Shown in pieces: positions 17,505 to 64,000 of a DNA stretch of 64,000 nucleotides. This DNA is from Nakazawaea peltata (lineage: Eukaryota; Ascomycota; Pichiomycetes; Alaninales; Pachysolenaceae), in assembly GCA_001599355.1 (NCBI GenBank), contig BCGQ01000006.1:62001-126000 (forward strand), read 5' to 3'. A program made the translations under genes and the position numbers. The notes below the pieces were generated by a model. That model was not told where the DNA came from. It did not search any database and worked only from the letters and a program-made list of their open reading frames with translations. Position 1 is the stretch's first letter; every line of letters starts with the position of its first letter.

Positions 17505-17817
17505 TTAAGCATTGTACTTAGCAATCAAAGAGTCAGCTAACTCAATGTATTGCTTCTCAGCATCCTCTTGGGAAGTACCCTTCAACTTGTCCCAACTCTC
17601 CCATTTGTACTTTCCCTTGAAGTCAAAAACACCTGGCTTAGCAGTGGTGTTGTCACCAACAGTGGCTTGCTTGTACAATCCGTACAATTGCAACAACTCA
17701 TCATCGTTAGGTCTCTTAGTCAAGTTAGAGACAGCGTTAGCCTGTTCTGTTAGTATTCTGTCTTCTTCCTCCCTCTTCCACTTCACTTACCTTTTCAGTG
17801 AATTCCAGAGAAACCAT
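17505..17817 (-). CDS. ACB1: Acyl-CoA-binding protein, spliced
   Basis: Exon 1 is 17791-17817 (nine codons) and exon 2 is 17505-17744, giving an 88-residue ACBP that buffers and delivers long-chain acyl-CoA in the cytosol. Exon 2 has LLQLYGLYKQATVGDN, KYKWESWDKLKG, and the DAEKQYIELADSLIAKY ending. Exon 1 reads MVS-CTG-EFTEK. ACBPs of this type start MVSAEF, so this CTG (17806-17808) is one of the clearest alanine positions in the window. The 46-nt intron has GTAAGT, TACTAAC and CAG. An unspliced reading from within the intron would lose the true N-terminus. Confidence 0.96.
17745..17790 (-). other. Intron in ACB1 (46 nt)
   Basis: On the minus strand it reads GTAAGT at 17790-17785, TACTAAC at 17758-17752 and CAG ending at 17745. 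It is very short even for a yeast. Confidence 0.92.
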
Positions 17818-17948
17818 TTTTATCCTTGTTAAGCTCAATTAATAACAGTACCGAATATAATTGAAAGTTCCGAATCGCTCATCGATTTTTAACATCAAAA
17901 AGTGGCACTAATTTTTTGTTGGCGTTGTTGTGTCAGCAGACCAGAAAA

Positions 17949-17957
17949 GTCGTGCAC
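17949..17957. promoter_or_regulatory. GTCGTGCAC motif before NUFM
   Basis: Reverse complement of GTGCACGAC, 76 bp before the NUFM ATG at 18033. The same word lies before SPP41-like, RSC, the SIRT5-like gene and GRX8. Confidence 0.45.
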
Positions 17958-18032
17958 AAAACACCAAACCCTTCCCCACCACAATCAAGGCATGTGCGGA
18001 GAAACTGTGAGGAGAGAAAAAGAAGGGGTAAA

Positions 18033-18494: not shown

Positions 18495-18506
18495 TCTCTA
18501 TACTAT

Positions 18507-18553: not shown

Positions 18554-18694
18554 TCATCTATTGATTAACTTAAGGTGGAGTGTAGAAGATATTCGTAATT
18601 TGCTAAGTGTTGATTTTCTTTAGCGCTATTGAAGATCAAATAGCCAACAGAGTAGACGGTGGTGACCAAGTGATACGCTGTTTTGATATTGAAA

Positions 18695-19699
18695 ATGGAT
18701 ACTAAACTGATTGAGAAATTGGCAAAATTGATCAAGTCGTACAAAACACCTCCCCGGATCGTATTTCTGAACGGAGCTGGTATCTCTACCTCTTGTGGTA
18801 TTCCTGACTTTAGAAGCCCGGGAACAGGATTGTACGATAACTTGAGTAAATTGAACTTGCCATACCTGGAACTGGTTTTTGATATTGAATATTTCGAAGA
18901 AAACCCAAAACTGTTCTATTTATTGCTGAAAGATATTTATCCAGGTCAGTACAAACCGTCTCATTATCACTACTTCATCAAGTTTTGTGAAGAGAAGAAG
19001 CTTGTGAAGAGATGCTACACCCAGAATATCGACACGCTTGAAAGGTTGACAGGATTGAGTGATGAACTTATTGTCGAGCTGCATGGATCGTTTGGTGGAA
19101 ATCATTGTATCAAGTGCTCTCTGCCAATGTCGGTGCTGGATATGGCTGAGAAGATCCAATCTCAAGAGATTGCTGTTTGTGATAAATGTGACGGTCTCGT
19201 TAAACCGGATATTGTATTTTTCGGAGAGCTGCTTCCTGAGAAATTCTGGAATTTATGGGATAAGGATCAAGATGATGTCGATATTTTGATAGTATGTGGT
19301 ACATCGTTACTGGTGTATCCATTTGCACTGTTACCATCGGATGTGGGTAAGAAAGTCCATAGAGTATTAATTAATAAGGAATTGGTTGGAGATTTCAAGG
19401 TGAATCCGAAAAAGGATGATATTGTGATTTTAGGAGATATCGATGAGGTGGTAGCGAAGTTGGTGAAATATTTGGATTGGGATGAAGAGTTTTGGAGATT
19501 GATAGAGGAATCTGATAAGTTGTTTAGTGAGAAGAAGTTGAGTTTGAAGTTGGAGCAAATTGAGGAGGATATTGGGAAGGGAAATAGCGAAGAGAATAGC
19601 GAGGAGGAGAAAGAGGAGAAAGAAGAGAAACAGAAACAAACAGATGACAAAGACCTCGACCAATTGGATCAAGAATTATCAGAATTAAAACTTAAATAA
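18695..19699 (+). CDS. HST2: Hst2-type NAD-dependent protein deacetylase (sirtuin)
   Basis: A 334-residue class I sirtuin of the Hst2/SIRT2 type, which removes acetyl groups from histones and other proteins using NAD+. Visible motifs are NGAGISTSCGIPDFRSPGTG (from residue 26), TQNIDTLER, catalytic histidine 130 in the E-x-HGSF block, two CxxC zinc pairs, KPDIVFFGE and the VCGTSLLVYPF nucleotide-binding segment. The C-terminal ~50 residues are a Glu/Lys-rich tail. Several in-frame CTG codons fall on conserved alanines: codon 129 (E-A-HGSF), codon 179 (FGE-A-LP) and codon 78 (LL-A-KDIYPG). The frame begins earlier at a TTG (18683), but the first ATG is 18695. Confidence 0.95.
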   Translation: MDTKLIEKLAKLIKSYKTPPRIVFLNGAGISTSCGIPDFRSPGTGLYDNLSKLNLPYLELVFDIEYFEENPKLFYLLLKDIYPGQYKPSHYHYFIKFCEEKKLVKRCYTQNIDTLERLTGLSDELIVELHGSFGGNHCIKCSLPMSVLDMAEKIQSQEIAVCDKCDGLVKPDIVFFGELLPEKFWNLWDKDQDDVDILIVCGTSLLVYPFALLPSDVGKKVHRVLINKELVGDFKVNPKKDDIVILGDIDEVVAKLVKYLDWDEEFWRLIEESDKLFSEKKLSLKLEQIEEDIGKGNSEENSEEEKEEKEEKQKQTDDKDLDQLDQELSELKLK

Positions 19700-20837: not shown

Positions 20838-22229
20838 ATGACATCCCAAACCAACATATTAGCAGGTAAGTAAACTCAGAAAGCACAGCAAGCACAGCGC
20901 AGCAAGCACAGTGACCACCGCAAGCACGGTCACACCTCACCAGCCACTTATACTAACTACTCCAGTCGGAAATAACCCAAACTTAGCCTTCTATAGTTGG
21001 AGACTGTTCCAATCAAAACTCTGTGACGTCACCATCATCACCAATGATGACTCAAAAGCTCCTTCCAATAACTACCAATTCTACAGCTCCCAATTCGGCA
21101 ACTCAAGATTCTCTTTATCAAGAGTCCATTCCAATTTAGATGCCTTCCAACAAATGGTGCCTCTGAATCAAATCAAATTCGACCTCATATTCTTAAGTGC
21201 CACTTCCTTACAAGAGATTAGCACGGTATCACAGCAATTGAGTACTATTTTGGAAAGATCCGCCTCCAACGGTATAGTGCCTACAGTTATCGTCGAATCT
21301 ACCGATTATGTCAATTTGGAATCAACCGTTCAGAAATGCTTACAAGTGTCGATCCCCATCGAGGTCTTGGCCATAATGACAGATTATGACGTTCGTTTAT
21401 TATCACCAAACTGCTATAAAGTTATGGAGAGTAAGAAAGAAAGTGAATTGGTCTATATTGGTAAGGGACAGTATGAGAAACCCAAATATTCGAGCCTGCA
21501 AGTGGCTTTAATCAACAAATTGGGTAACATTTTGGAGAACATCGGTCTCGACGTGTACAAATTGTCGACTCCACTTGAATTTCTTTCATATCAATGGAAA
21601 TTCGCCTTACCACAGATCGCTCTCGGTCCGTTATCCATCATATTCGAGCAACCTTATCCGGAAGCATTGTATGACTACTTATTGGCGAAGCCGTTGATCT
21701 CCGGATTGATCTTGGAGATCATTAGCGTCATCAAGACTATGAACTGTAAATTATTCAAAGGTTATGACAGTGAGACTTCTATGATCCAACGTTGCATTCA
21801 GTTAGATCCAAAGAAACCCAATAAGAGTGGGAACTTTTTGGAGGCTCCTAAATTGTTCTACAATTTCTATAATTCCAATGATCTTTATTTGGACCTTTTA
21901 CTTTTACAACCTATATTCCTTGCTGATGATTTCCAGATCAAAACCCCTTACTTGGAGTTTTTGTATCTGGTGTTAACAAAGTTCCAGGATAATAATTTGA
22001 GTGGGCCTGATAATAATAAGTCTATGTTTTGGATGCGTAAGAATGAGATCAATATGGAATATTTGAAGATGAAGAGTATTGAGGAGACTCAAATGAGTCA
22101 ACAACAAGCACAAGAACTTGATCAAGAGAGAATGATGTTACAACAACAGCTGCAAGAGTTACTGCAACAGCAACAACAGTTACAACAGCAACAGCAGCAG
22201 TTAGCACAACAGCAACAGCAATTCCAAAG

Positions 22230-22262
<33 letters not shown>

Positions 22263-23649
22263 ACTGCTGCTGCTGCTGCTGCTCACAGGTCTGTCTGTTC
22301 CTATGAATGGATCAAGTTCTAATGGTTCTCAACAAAGAGAAGTCTCAGCTACCTCTCAAACTAGTCAAGTTCCTGACCTGCAATTGGAGCAACCACAGCA
22401 GCAACTGCCCGCACCACTGGCTCAGTCACAACAACAATCTCAACTGTACAGTACTCCTCAATTAAATGATACGTTAGAAGATTTGACCGATATTGCAGTT
22501 TATGGTGCTCAATTGAATGGAGAATCTTTCTCTCCTCAACAGCAGACCCAATATCAACAATCTCAACCTTCTCAGCCACCAGTTGCTAATAATATCTATG
22601 CTCAACAGAATTATCAACGCCAGATTCAAAATAAGAGTGCACCACAGCAGTACCCATCTCAACATGTTGCTGCTCCTAGAGTACAAAACCAACAACAATC
22701 ATATTCTAATGGTCCTGTTCCAGTTCAGACACAATACTCTCCACAATCAGCTCATGTACAACCAGTAGTTCAACAGCAGTATTACCAACAGCCAATGCAA
22801 CAACAAGTACCAATGCAACAACAGGTACCAATGCAACAGCCAATGCAACAACAAATGCCAATGCAACAGCCAATGCAACAGTCAATGCAACAACCAATGC
22901 AACCAATGCAACCAATGCAACCAATGCTGCAAAGAAGAATGAGCGCAATGCCTGTAATGCCATCCCACCAATCTCAACTGTTTTATCCTCCTGGACCTCC
23001 AAAACCAACTTCAAGAAAAAATAGACGTTCTGCATTTCCTGGAACCATGGGAAACCTCGACTTTGGTGGTCATGGAGGTATGCCTGGTGCCAATAGACCT
23101 GTATTGAACAATGCTTCATCTGCTCCAAACGGTGCTCCAATGTCCAATGGAAGTCGTATGAAACATCTGCAAAGTTTCAACGTGATGAACAACAGTAGTA
23201 GAGCTTCTGTATTTGGTATGGTTGCTCAACCTCAACCTCAAATGTATCAACCTCAACCTGTGATGCAACAGCCTCAAGCATCTCAGTCTCAATACTTTGG
23301 TAGACAGCTGTCCCAAGGTGATATCTCTACGAGTACGGTGATTCAGAATGGTCAGCAGCAACCTGTCCCACCTCAACCAATCAATGGTACCACTACTACA
23401 TACAATGGATACACAACTAGTCTGAATCAAAGTGCTGATGAGTTAGATCACAATGGATCTCATCTGAAATCTCAAACAGTCCATACTTTTTCGACACTGA
23501 ACACAGACTTGAATGGATCTACACCGGCTGAACTGAAGCCAGAAGCTCCATTGCCTGAGCCAAAACCTTTAGGAGCTACAGCTACAACTACAGAGACCAA
23601 TCCTGAGCAGAAAAAGAAGAAGAAGGGTCTTTTTGGACGTAAGAAGTAA
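20838..23649 (+). CDS. SVL3: SVL3/PAM1-family protein with Q-rich C-terminal half, spliced
   Basis: Exons 20838-20865 and 20966-23649 encode 903 residues. The N-terminus after splicing reads MTSQTNILAVGNNPNLAFYS, a Rossmann-like start, and the first ~380 residues resemble ketopantoate reductase, as in yeast Svl3/Pam1 (bud-neck and endocytosis-related proteins of unclear biochemistry). Residues from about 395 are Gln-rich, with a long poly-Q tract followed by six consecutive CTG codons (22264-22281), which read poly-Ala under this code. Tandem MQQP repeats lie at about 22795-22925. The C-terminus KKKKKGLFGRKK is strongly basic and may bind membrane. The in-frame GTG at 20911 is not the start; the 100-nt intron explains the true N-terminus. 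Confidence 0.85.
20866..20965 (+). other. Intron in SVL3 (100 nt)
   Basis: GTAAGT donor at 20866, perfect TACTAAC at 20951-20957, CAG acceptor ending at 20965. Splicing converts a ten-codon frame that stops at TAA into the family-type ILAVGNNPN start. A nearer CAG at 20909-20911 keeps frame but lacks a branch site. Confidence 0.85.
22120..22284 (+). repeat. CAA/CAG poly-Gln tract followed by (CTG)6
   Basis: A glutamine-coding CAR run inside SVL3 is immediately followed by six in-frame CTG codons and a CTC. The CAG and CTG stretches are complementary on one strand and could fold into a hairpin. Confidence 0.85.
22795..22928 (+). repeat. Imperfect tandem repeat coding M-Q-Q-P units
   Basis: CCAATGCAACAAC-like 9-15-bp units repeat within SVL3 and encode PMQQQ/VPMQQ/PMQPMQ peptides. 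The tract is low complexity and probably length-variable between strains. Confidence 0.75.
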
Positions 23650-24079: not shown

Positions 24080-25372
24080 ATGTTCGCTAGATTGACATCG
24101 GCTCTCCCTGGTGGAGGCTCTGCTGCAGAGCAGAATAAAAGACAGAAACCTGCAGGTACTCCAAAGGAGTTTTTAAACGAGAAAATTACTAAACTGGGTG
24201 AGCATACTTTACCAGCTTCATGGTGGACATCCAATGCTATTTTTGAGTTGGAGAAAAGAGCCATTTTCAATAAATGTTGGTTATATACCACTCATGTTTC
24301 GAGATTTTCAAAACCGGGAGACTATTTCCAGTTCACCGTTGTTGGGTTGAATTTCTTCTTGATCAAAACTAAGCAAAATGAGATCAAACTGTTCCATAAC
24401 GTTTGTCGTCACAGAGCTTATCCAATTGTTAAAAAAGAGAATGGATCTTCGAGAATATTGGGTTGCAAATATCATGGCTGGTCTTATAATACAGATGGAG
24501 ACTTGACTAAAGCTCCACAATTCGATGAGGTTCCAGGATTCAAGAAGGAAGAGAATGGTCTTTTCCAAATCAAGACCCATATCACCAACCAAGGTTTGAT
24601 TTTCATCAACTTTGATCAGTCAGACGACGTTATTCCATTTGAAGACTGGTTCAAAGGTTTGACTACTGAGATGGAGGAGTACGATTTCAGTGACTACGAG
24701 TACGAGATGAGTTACGAGTTGGACGGTCAATTCAACTGGAAAACCTTGATGGACGGTTATCAAGAATGCTACCATTGTCCTACAGCTCATCCAGGTTTAT
24801 CCAAACTGTTTGATATTCCTAACACATACAAAGTGGTTCCAAGAGAGAACTACTGTCGTCATTATGCCAAGATCAACGAGAGCCCAGAAAACGTTGGTGG
24901 TGATTTCAACGGTTTATGGTGTTACTTGTTCCCAACTAACGGTATCAACTGTTATTCTCCAGCTTGGTATAGTATCAGGGTGTTACCCCTCTCACCAAGT
25001 CATACAATCTTACAGTATGACATCTTCTGTAAGAAAGGGTTGTCGGAGGAGAAGAAGAAAGAGTTCATCGATTTCTTGCAAATGGTGGAGATTGAGGATT
25101 TCAACTTGTGTGAATTGACCCAGAAGAACTTGAACCAAGGTATTTATTCGACTGGATTTTTACATCCAACTAAGGAGAACGGTGTGTTATACTATCAAAA
25201 CAGAGTGAAGGATTTGGTCAAGGCTCATTTCCAACTCGAGAAAGAACTGGGATCCGAAATCAATCCTGCCGTCGTAGGTGGTAAAGCACCTTCTCAGGAA
25301 GCTGTCGAGTTAGACCTGATGTGTAAAGAATTGGAGTGTAAGGGAATGAACCCTGAGTCTCTTGAGTGGTAA
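24080..25372 (+). CDS. Rieske-type non-heme iron oxygenase, choline monooxygenase-like
   Basis: A 430-residue Rieske oxygenase alpha-subunit-like protein. The [2Fe-2S] site is C109-x-H111 ... C129-x2-H132. The catalytic iron site has H232 and H237 in DGYQECYHCPTAHPGL, with a later EIEDFN aspartate near 340. Layout and the ASWWTSNAIFELEKRAIF N-terminus match fungal/plant choline monooxygenase-like enzymes, which oxidise choline to betaine aldehyde; the substrate here is not proven. The N-terminus has basic and hydroxylated residues but no clear transit peptide. A CTG at 24389-24391 falls in the IK-A-FHNVCRHRAYP block, where alanine is usual. Confidence 0.88.
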   Translation: MFARLTSALPGGGSAAEQNKRQKPAGTPKEFLNEKITKLGEHTLPASWWTSNAIFELEKRAIFNKCWLYTTHVSRFSKPGDYFQFTVVGLNFFLIKTKQNEIKLFHNVCRHRAYPIVKKENGSSRILGCKYHGWSYNTDGDLTKAPQFDEVPGFKKEENGLFQIKTHITNQGLIFINFDQSDDVIPFEDWFKGLTTEMEEYDFSDYEYEMSYELDGQFNWKTLMDGYQECYHCPTAHPGLSKLFDIPNTYKVVPRENYCRHYAKINESPENVGGDFNGLWCYLFPTNGINCYSPAWYSIRVLPLSPSHTILQYDIFCKKGLSEEKKKEFIDFLQMVEIEDFNLCELTQKNLNQGIYSTGFLHPTKENGVLYYQNRVKDLVKAHFQLEKELGSEINPAVVGGKAPSQEAVELDLMCKELECKGMNPESLEW

Positions 25373-30295: not shown

Positions 30296-33200
30296 TCAGC
30301 TTTGATTAGCGAAATCGATGAGGACCTTCTTTTCTTCCGGATCCAAATAGTTGAAGATGTTCTGGAAATACAGGTCAGATGCCACGGTCTTGAAAAATGA
30401 ACGAAGTAAAGTCAATTCTTCACTGGAGTCGGTATTTGGACGGGCCTCATCTTCTTCGTCATCATTATCAAGCTCAGCAAATTCTTCGTACTCATTTAAA
30501 TCTTCCCAATCATCCCCATCTTCTGTAGACAGATTTTCCTGCGCATTTTTCCCTTGATTGCCCATAAGTTTGACCGCAGATTCAATGAATGAATTATCAG
30601 GCTGAGAAAGAAGGAATTTGATCTCATTAATAAACAACTTGATTGTCTTCAAAGGCAGTGGGATTTGAACGAATTTCAAGTTCTTCTTCATTGATCTCGT
30701 AATAATTGTATCGGATGAGAATTGACCAGGAACTAATTGGTCGGAATTAACAAGAATCTCATCCAAAATTGGTGATTTCAATAAAAATACTTCAATCAAT
30801 GCCTTGATATTTAATACGATCTTATTGAATCCTCTGACAGTCTCGAAAGTTTGAAGCCAGATAGGAACTACTTTTTGAACCAGTTTAACCCCATCAAGTT
30901 CAAAATCACAAAGGAAATTCAATGTCTGTTGAGGGGAGGAAATCGTAAGATTGGCAAAAATCAAGATTAAACTCTCAATTGTAGGGAATTCTTTAGCTAC
31001 GATCAATCTTCTAGTGACTGTTTGTAAGATTTGTTCCAAATATTGGCTAACATCGGAGTTACTGGCGAAATTTTGGATCAATTTGGTGATCAAATCTCCT
31101 ACATTCAGAATCAGTTGATCACTTAATTCTGGAGATAAGTACTTTGACACAATTTGAAGTAAAGTGTCCATTCCTCCATTATATGAAGAGATAAACATTG
31201 CAGTTTCTTCATGACTGAGAAGTTTATTGAACAGTTCATTGGAAATCTGCAAAAGTTGATCATCATCCGTAGAAAGAATCAATTTTGTCATTGCTGGGAA
31301 TACAGCTTCGAAAAGTTCTTTAGTTAAAGTCCTATTTTCATCGATAAAGGTGATCAAAAACTCCAAAGTCAAATCCAAAGCTGGAGAAAATTCAATCTTT
31401 CCAGATGAAGAATCAGGTGTCGCTTCACTTAAAATATTCAATAAGAAAGGAAGAGCTTCATTACATTGAATCATGAATTGTTCCATTGAAATTCCTTCAA
31501 ATAAATCAGAAAGACATTCTCTTCCTGAATCAACTAATCCAAGATTCGAAGCATCCTGATAACAGATTTCAAGAATTAATCTAAGGACAGTTCCTTGAGT
31601 AGTTAATATCGTATTGTCAATGCAAATTGCAATAGATAAACTTTCCAAGAGAATCACATTTGCGTCTTCTTCACTATCCGCTCTTAAGTACTGGATAAGC
31701 TCAATAACTCTGGATTGGATCTCGGAATTCATGTTTTTACTTCTAATGCAATAATTAAAGTAGGTAAAAGAGAACAATACACTGATTTTGGTCAAATCAG
31801 TAGTCAGATACAAAAAGAGCTGCTGTAAAGTCTTTAAACCAAAACTTTGAGGGTCTATTTGGGTATCAAATCTCGAGAAAAATCTAGGAAGAATAAGAAT
31901 GACTCTTGAGGTCAAGAATTCATTGTTTTGATTGGTCTCTAAGATTGAAAGTAATTGGTTCAAGAAATCAACAAGCGAGACAGGAAGTTGCAAATCTTCC
32001 TCCTCGTTCTGTAAAAGACTTCCAAGGATAAATATGACGGACTCTTTCAAATCAGAATCATTTCCAGAGATAATTTGACCAAGTTTTTCATATATTTTGA
32101 GGAATATAATTTGATAATCTGTGGTTAAATCACAGAGATAATCAGCTACGGAATTTCTAGTTTGTAAATCGATATTTAACCCACTTTCCTCAGTAGCGAA
32201 AGTGTTGAAATCAGCCGACCACTCTTCTTTCATCAGTTCTGGTAAGACAGAGATTTGAATTAATGAGTAAAGGAACCTGTCCAATAATTCAGGACTGTTT
32301 CCAAATGAAAGTAATGGAGAGATATTGTTGATGAATTGTAAAATCTCGGAAAAAAGAGCACTGAAGAATTTTGTGATGTCAAAATTCTCAATTTGGATCT
32401 TCGCAAAGGCTGCGAAATCCTGGAATTTGGCATCCTCATCCTTCGGAGTCAATTCATTGACGAGAGACAAGTCACTAATAGCTAAATGACTCAGTAAATC
32501 TATAATAGTTTTGAATTTCCTTTGGAACATATGATTGAAATCGTTGGAAATAGTGTTAAGACACTTATAAATCTCCAACTTGAAAGCCTGAGGAGAAATA
32601 AATTGATAAGACAGCTGCTGGCCAACAACTTGTTCAAGTAATTTCATTAAAAGATTGATGGAATCCTCAATACACAGCTTAATAAAGCTTTTTCTTGCAG
32701 CAGTGAGATTTAACTGGGTGGATAACTGTTGTAAACAAACTTGGAACAATTTCAAAGTCTCAATCTTGATCTCTAATGGATAAGATTCTTCCATTAATAA
32801 AGTAGAACAATTCAAAATGATCAGTTGACCGACTTGACCCTCAAAAAATTGCTCATCGGTGACCAAATCATCAAATAAATCTTTCAACACAGATAATCCA
32901 CCAAGCATCTTGTAGAACTCATTGGATCTGACCAAGACATACAACTCATCTAAGAGTGTAGGCCATTCATCGGGATAATCCACCAGAGAGATTTGTATGA
33001 TGGCATAAGAGGCACTATTTCTGACTTTTGAGTCCTCGGACGAAATAAGCGCCAACAACAGAGCTCTAATAGTCAGTTTCAGGTCCTGATGAACACAATC
33101 ACCACCTTCAAAAGAGTTGAACAGTGGAGACCAAAACCGAGGAACAAGACGTTTCACATGCAATAAAGCAGCTTGTCTATAAGGGACTGGAACCGACTCG

Positions 33201-33346
33201 GTAGAGGCGATCTGAACCAAAGTGACAAGCGCCACAGAGGGATCGGTACGGACGACTTGTAAAAAGTCGGTCTCAGCACGGATTCTCGTGTTATTATCAG
33301 AAGAACTCTGATCAACTATAAGTTTCTGAATAATATCCTGTGACAT
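30296..33346 (-). CDS. KAP114: Importin Kap114 (importin-9 type karyopherin)
   Basis: A 1,016-residue HEAT-repeat nuclear import receptor; yeast Kap114 carries TBP, histones H2A/H2B and Nap1 into the nucleus. The N-terminus (IIQKLIVDQSSSDNNTRIRA, then YRQAALLHVKRLVPRFW) is a typical Ran-binding importin-beta N-terminal domain. The near-C-terminal acidic insert DGDDWEDLNEYEEFAELDND followed by SSEELTLLRSFFKTV is characteristic of Kap114/importin-9. The promoter has AAGTTAAGCGCC (33378-33389) and CGAAGAGCGAAGAGC (33410-33424), plus GGTCGTGTGTT near 33460, all related to motifs elsewhere in this window. Confidence 0.93.
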   Translation of the reverse strand: MSQDIIQKLIVDQSSSDNNTRIRAETDFLQVVRTDPSVALVTLVQIASTESVPVPYRQAALLHVKRLVPRFWSPLFNSFEGGDCVHQDLKLTIRALLLALISSEDSKVRNSASYAIIQISLVDYPDEWPTLLDELYVLVRSNEFYKMLGGLSVLKDLFDDLVTDEQFFEGQVGQLIILNCSTLLMEESYPLEIKIETLKLFQVCLQQLSTQLNLTAARKSFIKLCIEDSINLLMKLLEQVVGQQLSYQFISPQAFKLEIYKCLNTISNDFNHMFQRKFKTIIDLLSHLAISDLSLVNELTPKDEDAKFQDFAAFAKIQIENFDITKFFSALFSEILQFINNISPLLSFGNSPELLDRFLYSLIQISVLPELMKEEWSADFNTFATEESGLNIDLQTRNSVADYLCDLTTDYQIIFLKIYEKLGQIISGNDSDLKESVIFILGSLLQNEEEDLQLPVSLVDFLNQLLSILETNQNNEFLTSRVILILPRFFSRFDTQIDPQSFGLKTLQQLFLYLTTDLTKISVLFSFTYFNYCIRSKNMNSEIQSRVIELIQYLRADSEEDANVILLESLSIAICIDNTILTTQGTVLRLILEICYQDASNLGLVDSGRECLSDLFEGISMEQFMIQCNEALPFLLNILSEATPDSSSGKIEFSPALDLTLEFLITFIDENRTLTKELFEAVFPAMTKLILSTDDDQLLQISNELFNKLLSHEETAMFISSYNGGMDTLLQIVSKYLSPELSDQLILNVGDLITKLIQNFASNSDVSQYLEQILQTVTRRLIVAKEFPTIESLILIFANLTISSPQQTLNFLCDFELDGVKLVQKVVPIWLQTFETVRGFNKIVLNIKALIEVFLLKSPILDEILVNSDQLVPGQFSSDTIITRSMKKNLKFVQIPLPLKTIKLFINEIKFLLSQPDNSFIESAVKLMGNQGKNAQENLSTEDGDDWEDLNEYEEFAELDNDDEEDEARPNTDSSEELTLLRSFFKTVASDLYFQNIFNYLDPEEKKVLIDFANQS

Positions 33347-34280: not shown

Positions 34281-35258
34281 ATGTCTAACTCTTTAGCTCA
34301 ATTGAAGGCCTCTGGTACCGTTGTCGTTGCTGACACTGGTGATTTCGAATCCATTGCCAAGTACACCCCACAAGATGCCACCACCAACCCATCTTTGATC
34401 TTGGCTGCCACCAAGAAGCCAGAGTACGCCAAGTTGATCGACACCGCTGTTGCTTACGCCAAGGAACACGCTGAAGGTGTTGATGCTCAAGCTTCTTTGG
34501 CCATGGACAGATTGCTTGTCGAATTCGGTAAGGAGATCTTGCAAATTGTCCCAGGTAGAGTCTCTACCGAAGTTGACGCCAGATTGTCCTTCGACAAGGA
34601 AGGTTCCGTCAAGAAGGCTTTGGAAATCATTGAGTTGTACGAGTCTGTTGGTATCAGCAAGGAAAGAGTCTTGATCAAGTTGGCTTCCACTTGGGAAGGT
34701 ATCCAAGCTGCCAGAGAATTGGAGGCCAAGCACGGTATTCACTGTAACTTGACTCTTTTGTTCTCTTTTGCTCAAGCTGTTGCTTGTGCTGAGGCCGGTG
34801 TCACCTTGATTTCTCCATTCGTTGGTAGAATCTTGGATTGGTTCAAGGCTAACGGTGGTGAGGCTTCTTACACTGGTGAGACCGACCCAGGAGTCATCTC
34901 TGTCAGAAACATCTTCAACTACTACAAGAAGTACGGTTACAAGACCATTGTTATGGGTGCTTCTTTCAGAAACGTCGATGAGATCAAGGCTTTGGCTGGT
35001 GTCGACTACTTGACCATCTCCCCAGGTTTATTGGAGTCCTTGTTGACCTCTGAGGATCCTGTTCCAAAGGTTTTGGACGCCGCTGCCGCTGCTTCCCTTG
35101 ACATTGAGAAGGTCACCTTCGTCGATGACGAGGCTGCCTTCAGATACTCTTTGAACGAGGACCAAATGGCCACCGAGAAGTTGTCCCAAGGTATCAGAGG
35201 TTTCTCTGCCGACTGTATCACCTTGTTGAACAAGTTGAAGGAGAAGGTTTCTGCTTAA
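34281..35258 (+). CDS. TAL1: Transaldolase
   Basis: A 325-residue transaldolase of the non-oxidative pentose phosphate pathway, transferring a dihydroxyacetone unit via a Schiff base. Lysine 133 in [11 protein letters not shown] is the catalytic Lys, and DATTNPSLI holds the conserved N-terminal Asp region. Length and the sequence [20 protein letters not shown] are typical. Codon use is extremely biased (TTG for Leu, GCT/GCC for Ala). I found no in-frame CTG in the whole gene, as expected for a highly expressed gene under a reassigned CUG. A TATA box lies about 75 bp upstream. Confidence 0.98.
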
Positions 35259-35331: not shown

Positions 35332-36339
35332 TCACAACTTTTCGGTCAATTCTGGGATGATTTCAAACAAATCACCAACTAAACCGACATCGGCAACACC
35401 AAAGATTGGTGATTCTTCGTCTTTATTAATAGCAACAATCACTTTACTGTCTTTCATACCGGCTAAATGTTGAATGGCACCACTAATACCAATGGCCAAG
35501 TACAATTCTGGGGCGACAACTTTACCAGTTTGACCGATTTGTAAAGAGTTATCACAGAAACCTGAATCGACAGCAGCTCTGGAAGCACCTACAGCAGCTT
35601 GTAATTTAGTGGCTAATGGCTCTAAAAGCAGATCGAATTGTTCCTTGGATTTCAAAGCTCTACCACCACTAACAACAACCTTGGCAGAACCCAAATCTGG
35701 TCTAGATGATTGAACGATATTCTCACTAACCCATTCAACAGAAGAGTCAACAGCAGTAGAGGCGGAGAATTCTTCAATTGGAATCTCAGCTTCGGCTCCA
35801 GCCTCAGGAATAGGGAAAGATGAAGTTCTGAACGAGGCCAATACAAATTTCTCACCAGTCTTAACAGTGGATACGGCGTTACCGGCATAAATTGGTCTCT
35901 TGAATTGGACAGGAGACTCAACCTTGATGACATCAGAAATAGGTTGCACATCCAACAACAGACCTACTCTAGGCAAGATGTTCTTACCATTAGCTGAAGT
36001 TGGAGTGACAAAGTGGGAGAAACCCTTAGCTTGTATGAGATCGACAATCAATGGGGATGTGAATTCAGGTAAAAGATGTTCATATTTCAGGTCCTCGTTA
36101 ACAACGATTTGGCTGACATGGCTCCCATAAGCGAATAATTGAGGAGCAACGGTCTTAGCAGATGGTCCAAGTACCAACAGAGTGACTGGGAAACCCAACT
36201 CCTTAGCGGCGGCTAATCCTGACAACGAAGAAGGGGTGATTTTACCATTGGCGGCTTCGACAAAGGCCAAAGTCGATTGGAATCTGGCAGTACTTGCTTG
36301 ACGAACAGCAATTCTAACAGCAGAAATGGATCTAAACAT
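35332..36339 (-). CDS. AIM45: Electron transfer flavoprotein alpha subunit, mitochondrial
   Basis: A 335-residue ETF-alpha, which accepts electrons from acyl-CoA and other matrix dehydrogenases and passes them to ETF:ubiquinone oxidoreductase. The N-terminus (MFRSISAVRIAVRQASTARF) is a classic matrix-targeting peptide. The C-terminal FAD domain has VVSGGRALKS, GQTGKVVAPELYLAIGISGA, and the ending GVADVGLVGDLFEIIPELTE. Yeast calls this gene AIM45. The frame extends to a TTG six bases upstream, but the first ATG is 36339. It is convergent with TAL1. Confidence 0.95.
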   Translation of the reverse strand: MFRSISAVRIAVRQASTARFQSTLAFVEAANGKITPSSLSGLAAAKELGFPVTLLVLGPSAKTVAPQLFAYGSHVSQIVVNEDLKYEHLLPEFTSPLIVDLIQAKGFSHFVTPTSANGKNILPRVGLLLDVQPISDVIKVESPVQFKRPIYAGNAVSTVKTGEKFVLASFRTSSFPIPEAGAEAEIPIEEFSASTAVDSSVEWVSENIVQSSRPDLGSAKVVVSGGRALKSKEQFDLLLEPLATKLQAAVGASRAAVDSGFCDNSLQIGQTGKVVAPELYLAIGISGAIQHLAGMKDSKVIVAINKDEESPIFGVADVGLVGDLFEIIPELTEKL

Positions 36340-45103: not shown

Positions 45104-46585
45104 TTAGAAGTTGATGGTCTTGTCGAAGGTTCCCAAAGCAGCTTCCTTGAAAGCTTCAGACAAGGTTGGGTGGGCATGACAAACTCTAGCGATATCCTCA
45201 GTAGAAGCACCGTACTCAAGAGCCAAACCAGCCTCGGCGATCATCTCACCAGCGTTTGGACCAATGATGTGAACACCAAGAACTCTTTGAGTCTCGGCAT
45301 CGGCAAGGAACTTGACGAAACCTTCGGTGTCCATGTTGGTCTTAGCTCTGGAGTTGGCAATGAATGGGAATTTACCAACCTTGTACTTGATACCGGCCTC
45401 CTTCAATTGCTCTTCGGTTTGACCAACCCAAGCGACTTCTGGGTGAGAGTACATAACAGATGGGATGTTACCGTAGTTGACGTGACCATGACCGTGCTTG
45501 ATGTACTCGACAGCGGCAATACCTTCTTCTTCAGCCTTGTGGGCCAACATAGGACCGTAAGTGACATCACCAATGACTCTGATGTGTGGGTGCTTAGACT
45601 TGAACTCGGAGTCAATGACTAATCTACCTCTGTTGTCAACTTCGACACCAGTGTTCTCCAATCCCAAACCTTCAATGTATGGTCTACGTCCTACAGCGAC
45701 CAACAAGACATCAGCCTCAAGAGACTCGCTCTTACCGGTCTTCTTGTTCTCGTAAGTGATGTTGACAACGTCACCGCTTCTCTCACCACTGACAACCTTA
45801 GCACCCAACTTGAACTTGAAACCTTGCTTTTGCAAGAATTTTTGGGTGGTCTTGGCAACTTCACCATCCATGGAAGCACCAATGGCATCTTGGAACTCCA
45901 AAACAGTGACTTCAGATCCCAATCTAGAGTAAACGGAACCCATTTCCAAACCAATGATACCACCACCAATGATGGCAAGTCTCTTTGGAACCTCCTTCAA
46001 GGACAAAGCACCGGTAGAAGAGACAATTCTCTCCTCATCAATAGTGATACCTGGGAATGGAGTGACCTCGGAACCAGTGGCGATGATGAAGTGGTCGGCA
46101 TTCAAAACGGCCTCCTCACCACCCTCAATTGGGGTGACCTTAACACTGTTCTCATCGAGGAACTCACCGTTACCCTTGTAGTACTTGACACCGTTCTTCT
46201 TGAAAAGCATTTCAATACCACCAGTCAATTGCTTGACACAAGTGTCCTTGGCCTTTTGGAAGTTGTCAATGTTCAACTTAACATCACCAACATCGATACC
46301 TCTGTTCTTGGTGTCGTGTAAGATGGTGTGGTACAAGTGAGAGTTGTTCAACAAAGCCTTGGATGGAATACAACCAACGTTCAAACAGGTTCCTCCCAAA
46401 CTACCTCTCTTCTCGATACAAGCGGTGTCGAAACCTAATTGAGCAGCCTTGATGGCGGCAACGTAACCACCTGGACCACCTCCAATGATAACAATGTCGT
46501 GCTTCTTGGCAGCAGCATCAGCCAAAGTTCTAATTTGGTAAGACAAAGTCTTAGTAGTTGGACGAATGAAAGATGATCTCAACAT
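45104..46585 (-). CDS. LPD1: Dihydrolipoamide dehydrogenase (E3), mitochondrial
   Basis: A 493-residue flavoprotein that re-oxidises dihydrolipoamide in the pyruvate and 2-oxoglutarate dehydrogenase complexes, the glycine cleavage system and branched-chain dehydrogenase. The transit peptide ([20 protein letters not shown]) covers about 1-25. The FAD motif [12 protein letters not shown] precedes the redox disulfide C67-C72 in GGTCLNVGC, the NAD motif is [12 protein letters not shown], and the [13 protein letters not shown] block carries the active-site His-Glu. The length is as in other yeasts. It is strongly codon biased. It is divergent from GRX8 across a 370-bp promoter. Confidence 0.97.
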
Positions 46586-47282: not shown

Positions 47283-50200
47283 TACCTGCCGCCAACAATA
47301 ATTTATAGGGATATACCAAGCGCTATCGGAAGGGCATGCCCTCAGTGGGCCTTCCCTTGCTTTCTATAGATTTAGCAATCAGGAACTGATAAATGTAAAC
47401 ATTATATTACTCACTTTGGTGACATTTTGTCTCAAGTGTCTCAATTCCTGCCTCTTGGTTTCCTCTCTTGTATAGAAATTGAGCAAATACAAAAATGTCT
47501 CTCATTTTACTATTGCCCCATGCCTCAACTCTAGCATGGAAGAGAGTTTTGATGTAATATTGCAGATCTTATAACAAGCATAGATCTTCCAAGTTGCCTC
47601 TTTAACTGCACAATCCTCCTCTTCGCCCCATTCTATACAATGTAATATACCACATCGATTTCTATACTTACTGTAGACTCTCTTTGAGATGCGCGTCACT
47701 TAGTTTTTTTTTTCTTCACGTAGATCCCTTCGAACCCCCAATAAGACCTTAAAGTTGACTAGTGTATGAGGCAAGGGGGATTATAGCCTTGAAGTGCCTG
47801 GACAATCTCGACATACAGAGCTCATCAAAAATCTGTATAAGTGAGTTTAACTTCATATTGTTGGGATCCCCTCTTGTTATAGCAGTTAATATTGCGTGCC
47901 CTCGTCCAGCGCCACAGTTATAAGCTGATCTTTAATGCTATGGTAATTGTAAGACAACTCCTCAACTTAGAGAGCCTGTTTCCGTCGAATAATGACCCCA
48001 ATCTGGCCGCTACGTCATGCCCCATCTGTCTCTCTCCCTAATCAGAGATTGAAGAGCCCTCGAGGGAAAGACACTTTCCCTAAAAAGAAAGTGAGACAGG
48101 GTTAGCATTTTTTGGTGTTTCGCACACCCAGGATGCCCCTACCTGAGCATTTTCTTGCCGGAATTCTGTCAATTTCTCAAACACAATCTCCACTTGATAT
48201 ATGGGGTTGCCTAAGGGCACGGGTCTCTCGACTCACTTCACAGATCGTGTTACCTTGACAAGTTGTCTATGGCAATTATACCCGCAAATTAAGGTCTTGT
48301 AAAATACCCATCAACTTGCGAAAATTTTAATCCTGTCCCTCTAACGCACTATAACCCCCACGTAAGAAAATACCACGGTGTATCTATTTAATCTATACAT
48401 CGAAAACAGGCGCCTCGCAGCTCTAAACCGTTCAATACAGCTCCCAGCTTACACGAGCACTCAAGCTATACTCTTCCGGCGGAATCTTATGCAAGATGAA
48501 AGTGTAAACAGGCAAAATCTCTAAGCTGCATAATAGGGCAAATTTTCTTGAGTTTGTCTTTCAACTAATGCTATACGCGAAAAAGGTGAAAAGGTAGGTG
48601 TGAGTGAGTGAATTAAACCATTCATATTAGTCCTTTGTTGGGAGGCAATCTTGTAATGGTTTCTCTTAGATGAGGGAGGTGGTATGTTTAGTAGCTGTTA
48701 AGTTGTAGAATTATTTTTGAACCGTCACCACAGATATTCACAAATCAATAAGATGGGGACCTGACTAGGGGGCTTGATTGCATCATTATAATTATTAGGG
48801 GCGAGTTGAGGAATTATGATCGGCAGAGAACTCTAAGAATTTGCCCTTCGAACTGTAAATGACCATCATATTACTGATAATGTAACTAAACTTCTGTCTC
48901 AAGCCCATCATACTCTTGCCCATACATAATTCCGGGACGACAGGCATTGTTCTCAAATAGAATTTCTATAATAGATCTTACTTTCTTGCCCTTTCCTTTA
49001 GCCAAGTAGAATCTCACGGATAAGTTTTAATTAATTCTACGGTGAATAAATTCCAAAGCCTTCATTTTGAAACGACAGCAATGTTGGAATTGTTTCCCAG
49101 CCCAACAGAGTGGAGTGATTGTTGTTGCTTAGACTTCTATACGGTGATTCAGGAAACCTCTCACATCCGCCTTCCCCGTACATATTATTGGACTTAGCCT
49201 TCCAATAATTTGCCCTTGCCCTCTCCACAAAATCTTTATCTAATTTATGCGATCTAATTATCATGACAGGGGTTAGCAAAATGACAGGAAGTTATCACTA
49301 AAGAAATTGATGAAGTGTCAAAGACGAGCCAAGGGGGTGAATTTTTAATCTGAAGACTTGTTCCTTGATCTTTGATCGGCCAGGATCATTCTTCTTCAAG
49401 GTCTACATGAGTTGGGTAGGGGACGGAGAACAACAAAAAGAGGCATATACGTTTACTATATCACTTCCTGAGACTGTTAAGACCGGTCAATTGGCTACAA
49501 CCAATGAATTCCTCTCAAATTTAGTACGTAAAGAAATTGTGGTGTTATTAATCTACGGTACCCTCTCTCTGTTGTTCGAGTTGTTTCCACTGGAGAAATT
49601 GAAATTTGTTCAAGAAAGTACGATGGACTGGACTGAATGTTTTACTTGAAAGAGAATAATTTTACACCAAAACAGCTAAAATTAAACCCTTTTGGGATTA
49701 ATTGAAGCCAGGTTCTGATTCACTTTTAATTTAAAGCCGATGACCTCGAATATTTTGTGCAGTGTTGTTTCCGTCGTACTAGTAGATTTCAGCTCATTGC
49801 TGAACTTAAGTCGTTGGACAGAGTAAAATTCTTCGAGGAAATAGTACGACCTGCCTGCTTTTGCCCTCGATCTATAGATGCCTTTGTACTAATTAATTGA
49901 GTTGAATGTGTTAAATCCCGCCTTCGGAAGTGATCGTTAAGACAAATTGGCATGTATTTTCTTCAACTACTTTTAATATCGCAAACACCAAATCCCGATC
50001 CTCTCTCAATATATACCCTTTAACATATATCCTCCTCTAATATGATCACCACCTATCTGTCTTCTCTACTACTCTCCTTACCAAAAAAAATATCCCCTTT
50101 TTTTTTTAAGGAGAAAGGGCACAAAAAAAATAAAAAATTAGAGCTCATGCACCTTTATGCAGATCGAGTATACTTGATAAGAGGCTACCCGCATGACAAT

Positions 50201-52573: not shown

Positions 52574-54064
52574 ATGTCTGATTTACAGCAAAAGGTTTTG
52601 AAGGTTGTTGACGAGAGCAACGGGGTTGTGGAGAACACCTTGGATGCCTTCCCAGAGATTGACTCTGCCGTCATAAAGGGTGTCTTAGACTCCTTACTGG
52701 CTAGAGAGATGATTAAATACGATACTTTGGAGAAGCAAGTGTACACTTTGACCAAGGAAGGTGAGGATATCTTTGCCAATGGTTCTTATGAATATAGATT
52801 GTTGGAGTTGATCACCTCGAAAGTAGAAGGTTTGAAGATTTCAGAAGTTGGTAAGACTATGGGTAAAAACGGATCGATTGGTCAAGCTAGAGCTTTCAAG
52901 AATAAGTGGTTATCTAAGGAAGGTGATACTTTGGTTTCTAACTTCAAGGATTCTGATTTGCCAAAGGATCAAACCGCTATATATTTGAAAGAAATTAAAG
53001 AGAAGGGTACAATTAGCGATCTGAAAGAATTACTGGATTTGAAGAAGAGAAAGTTGGTCAACTTGAATAAGATCTTATCCTACAAGGTTTACAAAGGAAC
53101 TAATTTCTCTTTGGAAGTAAAACAATTGGAGACTGAGATAACGAGTGAGATGGTTTCTTCTGGCTCTTGGAAGGAAGCCGAATTCAAACCTTATAACTTC
53201 AACTCTGAAGGTGTCTTACCTCCATCTGGTGCTTTACACCCATTGATGAAAGTTAGAGAAGAATTCAGACAAATCTTCTTCGGTATGGGTTTCACCGAAA
53301 TGCCTTCCAACCAGTACGTTGAGACTGGTTTCTGGAACTTCGATACTTTATTTGTTCCACAACAGCATCCAGCTAGAGATTTACAAGATACTTTCTACTT
53401 GAAGGATCCAGTCAAGGCCAAGAAGCCAGAAGATTTGCAATTCTGGGATAACATTAAGAAAGTTCATGAAGAAGGTGCATATGGTTCTATTGGTTACAGA
53501 TACCCATGGAAGGAGGATGAATCCTTAAGAATGGTATTGAGAACCCACACCACCGCCATTTCCTCCTATATGTTGAAAGAATTAGCAAAGGATCCAAAGC
53601 CAGCTAGATTTTTCTCCATCGATCGTGTCTTCAGAAATGAAGCTGTCGATCTGACACATTTGGCCGAGTTCCACCAAGTTGAAGGTGTGTTGGCCGACTA
53701 CAACTTGACCTTGGGTGACTTGATCAAGTTCATGGAATCCTTCTTCGACAAGATGGGTGTCCACGGTTTGAGATTCAAGCCAACTTATAACCCATACACC
53801 GAGCCATCTTTAGAAATTTACGCTTGGCACAACGGTTTGGCCAAATGGGTCGAAATTGGTAACTCCGGTATGTTCAGACCAGAAATGTTAGAAAGTATGG
53901 GTTTACCAAAGAACATGAGAGTCTTGGGATGGGGTTTGTCGTTGGAAAGACCAACTATGATCAAATATGGTGTCTCTAACATCAGAGAGTTGTTAGGACA
54001 CAAGGTCAGTTTAGATTTCATCGAAACCAACCCGGCCGCCAGATTAGACGAGGACTTAGTCTAG
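52574..54064 (+). CDS. FRS2: Phenylalanyl-tRNA synthetase alpha subunit, cytosolic
   Basis: A 496-residue catalytic subunit of the cytosolic (alpha-beta)2 PheRS that charges tRNA-Phe. N-terminal winged-helix domains (to about 200) are followed by the class II core. The core contains KPYNFNSEG-type linker sequence, SSGALHPL-like motif 1 region, FFGMGFTEMPSNQYVETGFW, motif 2 (FRNEAVD ... HLAEFHQVEG) and motif 3 (GWGLSLERPTMI). Codon 360 is CTG (53651-53653) inside the almost invariant AVD-A-THLAEFHQ block, where yeast and other eukaryotes have Ala. This is one of the strongest single codon markers here. Confidence 0.97.
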   Translation: MSDLQQKVLKVVDESNGVVENTLDAFPEIDSAVIKGVLDSLLAREMIKYDTLEKQVYTLTKEGEDIFANGSYEYRLLELITSKVEGLKISEVGKTMGKNGSIGQARAFKNKWLSKEGDTLVSNFKDSDLPKDQTAIYLKEIKEKGTISDLKELLDLKKRKLVNLNKILSYKVYKGTNFSLEVKQLETEITSEMVSSGSWKEAEFKPYNFNSEGVLPPSGALHPLMKVREEFRQIFFGMGFTEMPSNQYVETGFWNFDTLFVPQQHPARDLQDTFYLKDPVKAKKPEDLQFWDNIKKVHEEGAYGSIGYRYPWKEDESLRMVLRTHTTAISSYMLKELAKDPKPARFFSIDRVFRNEAVDLTHLAEFHQVEGVLADYNLTLGDLIKFMESFFDKMGVHGLRFKPTYNPYTEPSLEIYAWHNGLAKWVEIGNSGMFRPEMLESMGLPKNMRVLGWGLSLERPTMIKYGVSNIRELLGHKVSLDFIETNPAARLDEDLV

Positions 54065-60659: not shown

Positions 60660-62228
60660 CACCTTTTGACTAGTTGACTGAAATGAATTGTCGATAAGAT
60701 AATTGATGCAATAAATTATATATAAGCTAAATCGAAGAATTTTGTTTTTAAAAGGTATTATGCCAACATCTGTTCTGCAACCAAAAGTAGGGATACCATG
60801 TTTTACAAAGTTTGTAGGTCACTTGTTATTTGAAAGCGAACTGTAAATTATGCATGATCTGATCTTATGCCTCATCTAGTAGCAATAATTACATTAAGAA
60901 TTTCATGTACAGAATACCGATACTCATACACCCCTCAATTTGAATAGTTTAGTCATATTGTTTGCTGCATGATGTTATACACGGAAGATGGCGAATAAAT
61001 AATATTCGTTTCAGTGATAGGGGTTCAAGGGTCCATAAATAGTACATGAAAGCCAATAAAAATGAGAGGATTCGAAATGAAATTCAAAAATGTCACCTGT
61101 CTTAATGAATAGGGGAATATGTCATTGCCTCAATACAATCGAACTCAATTGCCACTCTCCATAGAATTTTATTTACCCCAACATACTTGGTAACCCCCCA
61201 ATAGCAATAATATTAGGGAAAATCAGCAGAAAGTTAGAATTGGAGAGGTGCATTTAAGCTTGAACTTTAATTTGGCTCTTATTTAAACTCTTGGCCTTAT
61301 GACACAAAATAATAGAAATCAGTTGATCTAGATCATCTCGTTTCTCTAAAGCGAAAAGTATGATTAGATATGCAGGTTAAGAAAGTTTAATTCTAAGCAA
61401 ATGTCAAATAATAGTTGGTTTTACTGGTTATACTCCGCTTCGCCTTAGATAAAATAAGAGATGTCAAATTAAAGTAGCTACAACGAGCAATAAATCCGTA
61501 TCCAGATTATTCAGCAGCGCTTATCAAAGCTCAAATTTACGAAGGCTAGTTTTAATACGTAGTCAATATCTACACTAAAAGAGAGTTTGTCACGTGATAT
61601 GTACCATTCTTGATCTGAGTAAGAAATCCAACAGATTGACTTCCACTATAAATAATGAAATATTATAATTTCGACTCAAGATAAGTATGAATAAATTGTT
61701 CTAGGCTTCGCTTTGAATCATTATACCACTGACAAAGGTATAAGGATCTTCGAAGAAGCCTCATGTAGGGAAGAAAAGTACAGGAAATGAGGCAGAGCAT
61801 GGATTTAATGGAACTAATAAATGACTGACGACGTCTGTCCTCACAATGGTATCACTTATCATTCACATTTCATCGATCTAGATTTCAAAGAACCGGAATT
61901 TCAATCCATGGCCAAGAAATCTCCAGATTCATTCACAAGATCGTATATCCACTACTCATCTCTCCTTCTCCACCCCCTTTACAGTAACCCTTATATAAAA
62001 ATAGTTGAGAAAAATAAAAATTTTCTTTTAAAGTGAGAATATTATTGACACGTGTATTTTGGGTTAAATCAAGCTGGCAGAACGGACCTCCCGCGCGCTT
62101 TCGATCTGCCCCCTTTCTGAGCCTCTCTGTAAAGGAGCTTTTTAATGACGGCGCTTAACTTTAGACACGGATTAGTTATAGATCTAGGAGATTCAAGGAC
62201 AAGATCAAGGTTCAATTCATAACACATT
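60660..62228. promoter_or_regulatory. Divergent promoter GATA factor/VRP1
   Basis: About 1.57 kb of AT-rich DNA. It has a TTATATATAAG element at 60716-60726, CACGTG boxes at 61591-61596 and 62049-62054, and GGCGCTTAACTTTA at 62150-62163, 66 bp before the VRP1 ATG. A 71-codon frame at 61821-62036 is unsupported. Confidence 0.55.
62150..62163 (+). promoter_or_regulatory. GGCGCTTAACTTTA element before VRP1
   Basis: Nearly identical to GGCGCTTAGCTTTA before PEP5 (13218-13231), the reverse of AAGTTAAGCGCC before KAP114 (33378-33389), and GGGCGCTTAATTTA in the SPP41-like intron (28967-28980). Confidence 0.5.
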
Positions 62229-64000
62229 ATGGCTGCTCCACCTCCACCACCACCTCCGCCTCCACCTCCAATGGGTGCTCCAAGTGGCGATCTCCCCTCT
62301 AGACCTCCTCCTACTGCTATGGCTGGAAGGGATGCGTTACTCAAGTCTATTCAACAAGGTAAAAGGTTGAAGCTGACCACTACAAATGACCGTAGTGCTC
62401 CTCAGGTAAGTGGATCATCATCATCATCGAGTTCACCGGCTCCCGGAATTCCTCTGTTCCCAATGGGCGGTCTTCCTAGCCTGCCTTCGATCCCGTCGGC
62501 TCGACCATCAAAATCAACACCTGGATCATCAGCCCCACCAGTGCCTTCTGCACCTCAATTGGGGGACATATTTGCTAATGGAATGCCTCAATTGAAACAT
62601 AGAGCTGGAGGTGCTTCCACTGGGGCTCTGTCGACCCCATTAAGTGCTCCTCCTATCCCACCATCGTCACTGCCTCTGATTCCATCAATTCCAAGTTCGA
62701 GACCGGGTAAATCTCTGCCTTCGGCACCAGCAATGCCAACTCATAGACCTAATAAATCGGTTTCATCAACTCTGCCGCCCATTCCTGGGAGTCTGGCACC
62801 ACTGCCCCCACCAATACCATCTGCTGCAGTTCCACCAATACCAAGCTCAGCGGTTCCTCCTCTTCCAAGTGCTTCGGTACCTGCTATTCCAAGTTCGCTG
62901 GCCCCACCAGCACCACCAGCACCACCAGCACCAGCTCCGGTATCAGCCAACTCTTCAAGTCCTCCTAAAGCACCAGCTTTGCCTTCTGGAGGTTTACCGT
63001 TCTTGGCTCAGATCAACGCTAGAAGAGATGAAAGTCATGTGGTAGATGAGACAAGTGCAACAGCTACACCTTCACCTCCACCTCTTCCATCCACTGGAGT
63101 CCCTGCCCCACCACCTCTTCCATCCACTGGAGTCCCTGCCCCACCACCTCTTCCTTCCACTGGTGCCCCTCCCCCTCCACCACTTCCATCTACTGGGGCA
63201 CCACCTCCACCACCACTTCCTTCAACACTGGTACCCCCACCACCTCCTCTTCCATCATCAGGAGCTCCAAAACTGCCTTCGATTCCTCTGGCTCCAGCTT
63301 TACCGACTGCTTCTGCTCCGCCACCGCCACCTCTTCCTCAACAATCGCTGCCGTCAGCTGCTCCTGCAAAACCAAGTGCTCCAGCTCTGGGAGGCTTACC
63401 TTTCTTGGCTGAAATCAATGCCAGAAGAGATGAATCCAATGTGGTGGATGGTTCCTCAACTCCAAAGTCTTCAAACAGTTCTCTGAAACCACCATCACTG
63501 CCTCTGCCACCATCAATCCCAGCTCCTGTATCAATTCCAGCACCGGCAATTCCACAATCAGCACCACCACCACCTAAACTGCCAGCTCCTATATCAATTC
63601 CGGCTCCTATTATTCCACAGTCTACCCCACAACCTCCAAGACTGCCAGCACCACTGATAGTACCTTCGCTGCCTCTGATTCCTGTCTCTGCAGCACCTCT
63701 GTTGCCTTCAGCACCTCCACCTCCAACATCGGCAGCTCCACCATCACTTCCTCCTTCATTACCTCCTTCGTTACCATCACTGCCAGCTCCGACCCCTCAA
63801 AGGAACACTTCTCAAACTAAGGCAGCTCCACCGCCACCACCTCCAACTACTCAATCCACCCCAGCTACTGCAGGACATAGCAAACAAAGGATCTTTGGTC
63901 ATAACAATGCACCTGCACCGTCTCAACCAGACCTGTCTACAATGCAAGCCGGTTCAAGCTTGAGAAAAATTGACGCTTCTCTGTATACTATTGGAGGTGC
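62229..64000 (+). CDS. VRP1: Verprolin (WIP family), 5' part
   Basis: An open frame from the ATG at 62229 to the window end (590 codons, no stop), so the 3' end is missing. It is verprolin, which binds G-actin, Las17/WASP and type I myosins at cortical actin patches. It starts with a poly-Pro stretch, then a WH2 actin-binding motif at about 33-58 (RDALLKSIQQGKRLK-x-TTTNDRSAP). The rest is Pro/Ser/Ala-rich with two GGLPFLA-INARRDES-like repeats and five to six PPPLPSTGVPA units (63081-63275). About 28 CTG codons are present, many in S/P-x-P contexts where Ala is natural and Leu is not. The CTG at WH2 codon 49 also suits Ala. Confidence 0.9.
   Translation, partial: MAAPPPPPPPPPPPMGAPSGDLPSRPPPTAMAGRDALLKSIQQGKRLKLTTTNDRSAPQVSGSSSSSSSPAPGIPLFPMGGLPSLPSIPSARPSKSTPGSSAPPVPSAPQLGDIFANGMPQLKHRAGGASTGALSTPLSAPPIPPSSLPLIPSIPSSRPGKSLPSAPAMPTHRPNKSVSSTLPPIPGSLAPLPPPIPSAAVPPIPSSAVPPLPSASVPAIPSSLAPPAPPAPPAPAPVSANSSSPPKAPALPSGGLPFLAQINARRDESHVVDETSATATPSPPPLPSTGVPAPPPLPSTGVPAPPPLPSTGAPPPPPLPSTGAPPPPPLPSTLVPPPPPLPSSGAPKLPSIPLAPALPTASAPPPPPLPQQSLPSAAPAKPSAPALGGLPFLAEINARRDESNVVDGSSTPKSSNSSLKPPSLPLPPSIPAPVSIPAPAIPQSAPPPPKLPAPISIPAPIIPQSTPQPPRLPAPLIVPSLPLIPVSAAPLLPSAPPPPTSAAPPSLPPSLPPSLPSLPAPTPQRNTSQTKAAPPPPPPTTQSTPATAGHSKQRIFGHNNAPAPSQPDLSTMQAGSSLRKIDASLYTIGG
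63081..63275 (+). repeat. 33-bp tandem repeat in VRP1
   Basis: Units coding PPPLPSTGVPA are repeated about five times with drift (GVPA, GVPA, GAPP, GAPP, LVPP). These are profilin/SH3-type binding motifs. Confidence 0.85.

Follow-up and report, generated by a model that had tools for sequence, protein, structure and literature searches.

Introduction

As of 2018, CUG in budding yeasts was the sole sense codon known to have changed its meaning in nuclear genes of eukaryotes (PMC5951914). In the CUG-Ser1 (Serinales) and CUG-Ser2 (Ascoideales) yeasts (NCBI table 12), this codon is read as serine, and in the CUG-Ala clade, which comprises Pachysolen, Nakazawaea, and Peterozyma, it is read as alanine (PMC5951914). 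The alanine meaning is laid down in NCBI genetic code 26, the Pachysolen tannophilus nuclear code. Here we analyse a stretch of 64,000 nucleotides (further called the window), which is almost certainly nuclear DNA of a budding yeast from the CUG-Ala group (order Alaninales), with CTG read as alanine according to table 26. The code itself is already in print, and the window represents a known code in another member.

Pachysolen and Nakazawaea are placed in the Pachysolenaceae within the order Alaninales. In the passages of the literature used here, the alanine meaning of CTG goes back to 2016 in the case of Pachysolen and had been described for Nakazawaea and Peterozyma by 2018; in 2024 it was treated as a trait of Alaninales, and the code was corrected for (PMC11540330). 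The corresponding excerpts of two other papers give 17 Alaninales genomes (PMC12322030) and the omission of five CUG-Ala species from a study of codon usage (PMC6701816).

The window is like table 26 in the meaning of CTG, and no difference was found, the other codons checked as controls being as expected in 52 of 56 cases (first version of the table). It is also like the CUG-Ala clade of Alaninales, as portrayed in passages of PMC5951914 and PMC11540330, in codon meaning and in budding-yeast gene content. Since these passages present Pachysolen, Nakazawaea, and Peterozyma as the sole group with CTG as alanine, membership in this group, proposed in a preliminary description made from the sequence, is supported by codon meaning as its single character and not by a tree. 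With CUG-Ser1 and CUG-Ser2 the likeness consists in the same codon being reassigned by a new tRNA with the CAG anticodon (PMC5951914), and the difference in the residue, which is serine there and alanine in the window. Any CUG-reassigned member helps in asking how the reassignment came about. In practice, CTG is present in 30 of the 32 open reading frames (ORFs) counted, so that predictions made with table 1 or 12 would give wrong residues.

Residues opposite CTG codons

Ten window proteins were aligned to their closest solved homologues. As leucine stood for CTG in the translated queries, the count is biased against alanine. To avoid the picking of sites, all CTG codons within the alignment rows were counted: the ten genes have 113 CTG codons, of which 71 were in the rows used, and one of these was opposite a gap, which leaves 70. 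The count covers the first chain shown for each gene, the alignment ends of KAP114 and PEP5 being outside it. An earlier count with a second homologue of ETF alpha gave alanine at 24 of 72 codons, and this homologue was then set aside to keep any codon from being counted twice.

Opposite the 70 CTG codons, alanine occurs 22 times, followed by glutamate and leucine (7 each), serine (6), proline, aspartate, and glycine (4 each), methionine, phenylalanine, and glutamine (3 each), lysine and valine (2 each), and cysteine, asparagine, and arginine (1 each), with no threonine. The 468 aligned leucine codons of these genes that are not CTG face leucine in 242 cases and alanine in 11, the difference from CTG being highly significant both for alanine (22/70 vs 11/468, Fisher p = 9e-14) and for leucine (7/70 vs 242/468, p = 7e-12). 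The alanine codons GCN face alanine in 77 of 194 cases and leucine in 9, and 333 serine codons face serine 116 times and alanine 34 times. When the sites were restricted to conserved flanks (identity of 50% or more, and gaps excluded within three residues), 29 CTG codons were retained, with alanine at 13, methionine and serine at 3 each, and leucine at 1, the latter compared with 95 leucines at 148 other leucine codons. By these counts, CTG behaves as a GCN codon does.

The class log-likelihoods lead to the same order of readings. For all 70 sites they are −178.9 for alanine, −206.2 for threonine, −213.9 for serine, and −252.5 for leucine; for the 29 conserved-flank sites, −66.9 for alanine, −88.2 for serine, −88.4 for threonine, and −114.0 for leucine. 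The lead of alanine is about 35 log units over serine and 74 over leucine in the full set, and about 21 and 47, respectively, in the conserved one. The method named the correct amino acid for the 52 of 56 other codons mentioned above.

Pfam domain scores

The other test, largely independent of the homologue residues, was based on the scoring of 28 Pfam domains in 20 genes with CTG translated as alanine, leucine, and serine in turn. Seven of the 27 ORFs with Pfam matches under table 26 (the F-box, CAP, EBP, SPP41, FCF2, GATA, and WH2 proteins) were outside the leucine and serine runs, and overlapping or weak families (PK_Tyr_Ser-Thr, VPS11_N, Clathrin, tRNA-synt_2, tRNA-synt_2b, tRNA_synthFbeta, thioredoxin, AAA-type, and RING) were left out of the sum. 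The sum is highest for alanine (3341.4 bits), with 3312.8 bits for serine and 3250.9 bits for leucine, that is, a margin of 28.6 and 90.5 bits, respectively. By domain, alanine scores higher than leucine in 23, lower in 2 (by 0.1 bit each), and equally in 3; compared with serine, it is higher in 19, lower in 6, and tied in 3. Alanine is thus supported as the best among the readings tested by both homologue residues and Pfam scores, while leucine and serine fit clearly worse and are rejected by the same sums and counts.

Threonine and glycine, tried on three genes, fall below alanine as well: the four-domain sums are 698.8 for alanine, 687.4 for threonine, 686.2 for serine, 680.4 for glycine, and 672.8 for leucine. 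By domain, the closest runners-up to alanine are threonine, within 1.2 bits in SIR2 and 0.1 in ETF_alpha, and glycine, within 0.9 in the kinase.

Individual CTG sites

The preliminary description had named CTG codons standing at conserved alanine positions in five genes, and all of them are in frame. Alanine is found in the closest solved homologue at eight of the nine sites tested. In the HST2-like sirtuin (18695–19699, plus strand, 12 CTG codons), codons 78 (18926) and 129 (19079) face alanine, the latter in yeast Hst2; codon 179 (19229) faces aspartate in yeast Hst2, contrary to what had been proposed. Of the 11 CTG codons of this gene that align with yeast Hst2, 4 face alanine, and the SIR2 domain scores 201.2 bits as alanine, 193.3 as leucine, and 198.5 as serine. 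In the SIRT5-like sirtuin (43875–44930, plus strand, 10 CTG codons), alanine stands opposite each of the four named sites (44124, 44205, 44295, and 44751), and the alignment with sirtuin-5 covers 6 CTG codons, 5 of them facing alanine. The same residue is opposite codon 104 (24389) of the Rieske oxygenase (carnitine monooxygenase-like; 24080–25372, plus strand, 5 CTG codons), whose Rieske domain scores 62.6, 58.0, and 58.9 bits as alanine, leucine, and serine. This gene resembles the bacterial carnitine monooxygenase, which is perhaps unusual for a budding yeast. FRS2, the alpha subunit of phenylalanyl-tRNA synthetase (52574–54064, plus strand, 4 CTG codons), has codon 360 at 53651, opposite which the closest homologue has alanine; of the five chains shown, three have this residue.

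ACB1 (acyl-CoA-binding protein, named from sequence; 17505–17817, minus strand) bears CTG as codon 4 (17808–17806), in frame within a first exon of nine codons (17817–17791), and exon 2 extends from 17741 to 17505. Its intron of about 49 bases (approximately 17790–17742), with ends inferred from GTAAGT, TACTAAC, and the reading frame, leaves no more than about 8 bases between the branch A and the AG that is used.

The range of 17505–64000, to which the alanine meaning had been ascribed, proved correct as far as it goes and too narrow, since two genes to the left of it behave alike. In MAK16 (6334–7233, minus strand, 3 CTG codons), codon 158 (6762) corresponds to alanine in the three Mak16 chains shown, and in PEP5/VPS11 (10378–13170, minus strand, 9 CTG codons), codon 352 (12117) corresponds to alanine in yeast Pep5, as the one among 8 aligned CTG codons of the gene. 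The code applies, therefore, across the whole window. The complex I subunit reported earlier is real and belongs to the NDUFA5 family; we take its presence to exclude yeasts without complex I.

Alternative readings of CTG

Several observations weigh against alanine or do not speak for it. Among archaeal homologues, drawn from an Asgard archaeon's phylum (30 loci each for SIRT5-like, HST2-like, and FRS2 proteins, 90 in all, one of them removed by a length filter; 4 of 26 CTG sites dropped for low occupancy), the scores over the remaining 22 CTG sites were −4.1 for lysine, −8.2 for alanine, −10.0 for serine, −10.1 for glutamate, and −12.3 for leucine; these homologues are too distant, and since the same method recovered 41 of 48 other codons, the ranking is taken as speaking neither for nor against alanine. 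By site, alanine is present in 6, 29, 8, and 22 of 29 archaeal homologues at SIRT5 codons 84, 111, 141, and 293 and in 7 of 30 at HST2 codon 78; at HST2 codons 129 and 179 it either does not occur or is not one of the most frequent residues, with leucine in 17 of 30 at codon 129 although yeast Hst2 has alanine there. At FRS2 codon 360, alanine is found in none of the 30 archaeal homologues, and serine in two of the five chains shown, so that FRS2 360 and HST2 129 are less clean sites than was claimed. The RSC1/RSC2-like protein with bromodomain and BAH (40610–43672, minus strand, 30 CTG codons) has no alanine at 14 aligned CTG codons in yeast Rsc2 (glycine 3; serine, leucine, and glutamate 2 each), and its BAH domain scores higher as alanine, its bromodomain as serine. 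In the repeats of the proline-rich ORF starting at 62226, five-residue words with the CTG position replaced were matched by alanine 16 times, proline 13, isoleucine 12, serine 11, and leucine 3, and longer words gave few matches, with alanine not favoured; the readings are not told apart by this comparison. Outside the Pfam sum, tRNA-synt_2b is higher as leucine (28.1 vs 26.3 bits), Clathrin as serine (34.8 vs 32.4), and PK_Tyr_Ser-Thr as glycine (118.4 vs 117.6). Finally, the 64-kb window has no tRNA gene, hence tRNA-Ala(CAG) is not seen there.

Serine, as in a CUG-Ser1 or CUG-Ser2 yeast with table 12, fits the Pfam domains by 61.9 bits better than leucine and exceeds alanine in six of the 28, namely the bromodomain (87.1 vs 82.8 bits), NIPA, Duc1, HEAT_IPO9, PRK, and ETF_alpha; yet alanine leads it in the Pfam sum and at both the 70 and the 29 best sites, and serine is opposite 6 CTG codons compared with 116 of 333 real serine codons, which makes this reading extremely improbable. 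The standard code, under which CTG would encode leucine and the matches to alanine would be chance hits that were picked out, can appeal to the seven leucines among the 70 sites, but it is refuted already by the leucine counts at the other leucine codons of the same genes; as it is 74 log units and 90.5 Pfam bits worse than alanine, it is next to impossible. The seven leucines, slightly above the 9 of 194 at GCN codons, might instead reflect mixed decoding, in which CTG is mostly alanine with a sizeable leucine share due to a second tRNA or to mischarging, and a stochastic serine/leucine decoding is known in Ascoidea (passages of PMC8645108). However, several leucine matches adjoin gaps in alignments where the queries themselves carried leucine, the conserved-flank sites give leucine at 1 of 29 CTG codons, similarly to 2 of 77 GCN codons, and for Pachysolen the same passages report more than 99% alanine and call an earlier figure of 10% leucine mistaken. 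Mixed decoding is, consequently, very unlikely, and we retain the reading of CTG as alanine.

The G3:U70 pair is the alanine identity pair of tRNA. Based on the literature on the clade (PMC5951914), CUG would be read by an alanine tRNA with its anticodon mutated to CAG. This tRNA would be charged by the alanyl-tRNA synthetase because the anticodon is not used for recognition, and the former tRNA-Leu(CAG) would have been lost. According to the relevant passages of PMC8645108, only the tRNAs for leucine, serine, and alanine have an anticodon that does not act as an identity element.

Codon usage of CTG

CTG accounts for 275 of the 14742 codons of the 32 ORFs (0.0187) and for 275 of their 1017 alanine codons (27%). 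This frequency may be compared with 0.003–0.006 given, in the passages available from PMC8084343, for three GAL genes averaged over the reassigned species. The main-text passages searched do not quantify how large a part of the alanine codons CTG makes up in the CUG-Ala clade. CTG cannot be reached from any GCN codon by a single substitution. Across the ORFs, the CTG density tracks neither the density of GCN (rho 0.00) nor that of other leucine codons (rho −0.13).

The CTG share of alanine codons drops as the use of preferred codons, an assumed set, climbs (Spearman −0.68, p = 2e-5, 32 ORFs). The two most codon-biased genes lack CTG completely: the transaldolase-like gene (34281–35258, plus strand) has 41 GCN codons and the dihydrolipoamide dehydrogenase-like gene (45104–46585, minus strand) has 42, both being named from sequence and not from a family search. 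The falling share and the absence of CTG from biased genes would be in keeping with a low supply of the tRNA that reads CTG. Tentatively, CTG may be regarded as a major alanine codon that is shunned in highly biased genes; if most other Alaninales use it far less, it would represent a reassigned sense codon that has been completely taken up again and still shows signs of selection against its tRNA, although we consider this doubtful.

Other genes and features of the window

The remaining aligned genes are on the minus strand. The KAP114-like importin (30296–33346, 18 CTG codons) has alanine at 5 of the 15 codons aligned to a residue. In ETF alpha (35332–36339, 4 CTG codons), the ETF domain scores 131.7, 123.7, and 127.1 bits as alanine, leucine, and serine, and in the CaMK-like protein kinase (37725–39629, 18 CTG codons), the Pkinase domain scores 247, 238.5, and 241.5 bits in the same order, with alanine at 3 of 4 aligned CTG codons.

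A run of six CTG codons, i.e., six alanines under table 26, is located at 22264–22281 (plus strand) directly after a CAA/CAG tract encoding polyglutamine; the tract and the run span 22137–22281, and the adjoining CAG and CTG runs are complementary. This region is within a glutamine-rich ketopantoate-reductase-like protein (ApbA_C, 20838–23649), whose first ATG, at 21154, is preceded by a continuation of the open frame. The gene may begin with a short exon further upstream, as suggested by an ATG at 20838 and a GTAAGT after it at 20866.

About 3 kb between 47283 and 50500 are without a nameable gene, the longest stop-to-stop frame there being 102 codons (49341–49649) at an ordinary G+C content of about 40%. 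The proline-rich protein with the WH2 motif (62226–63998), presumably verprolin-like, has 28 CTG codons and a local G+C content of up to 52%, and is cut by the window end. A match to the small nucleolar RNA snR46 is located at 61597–61762 on the minus strand (Rfam RF01253, 63.5 bits).

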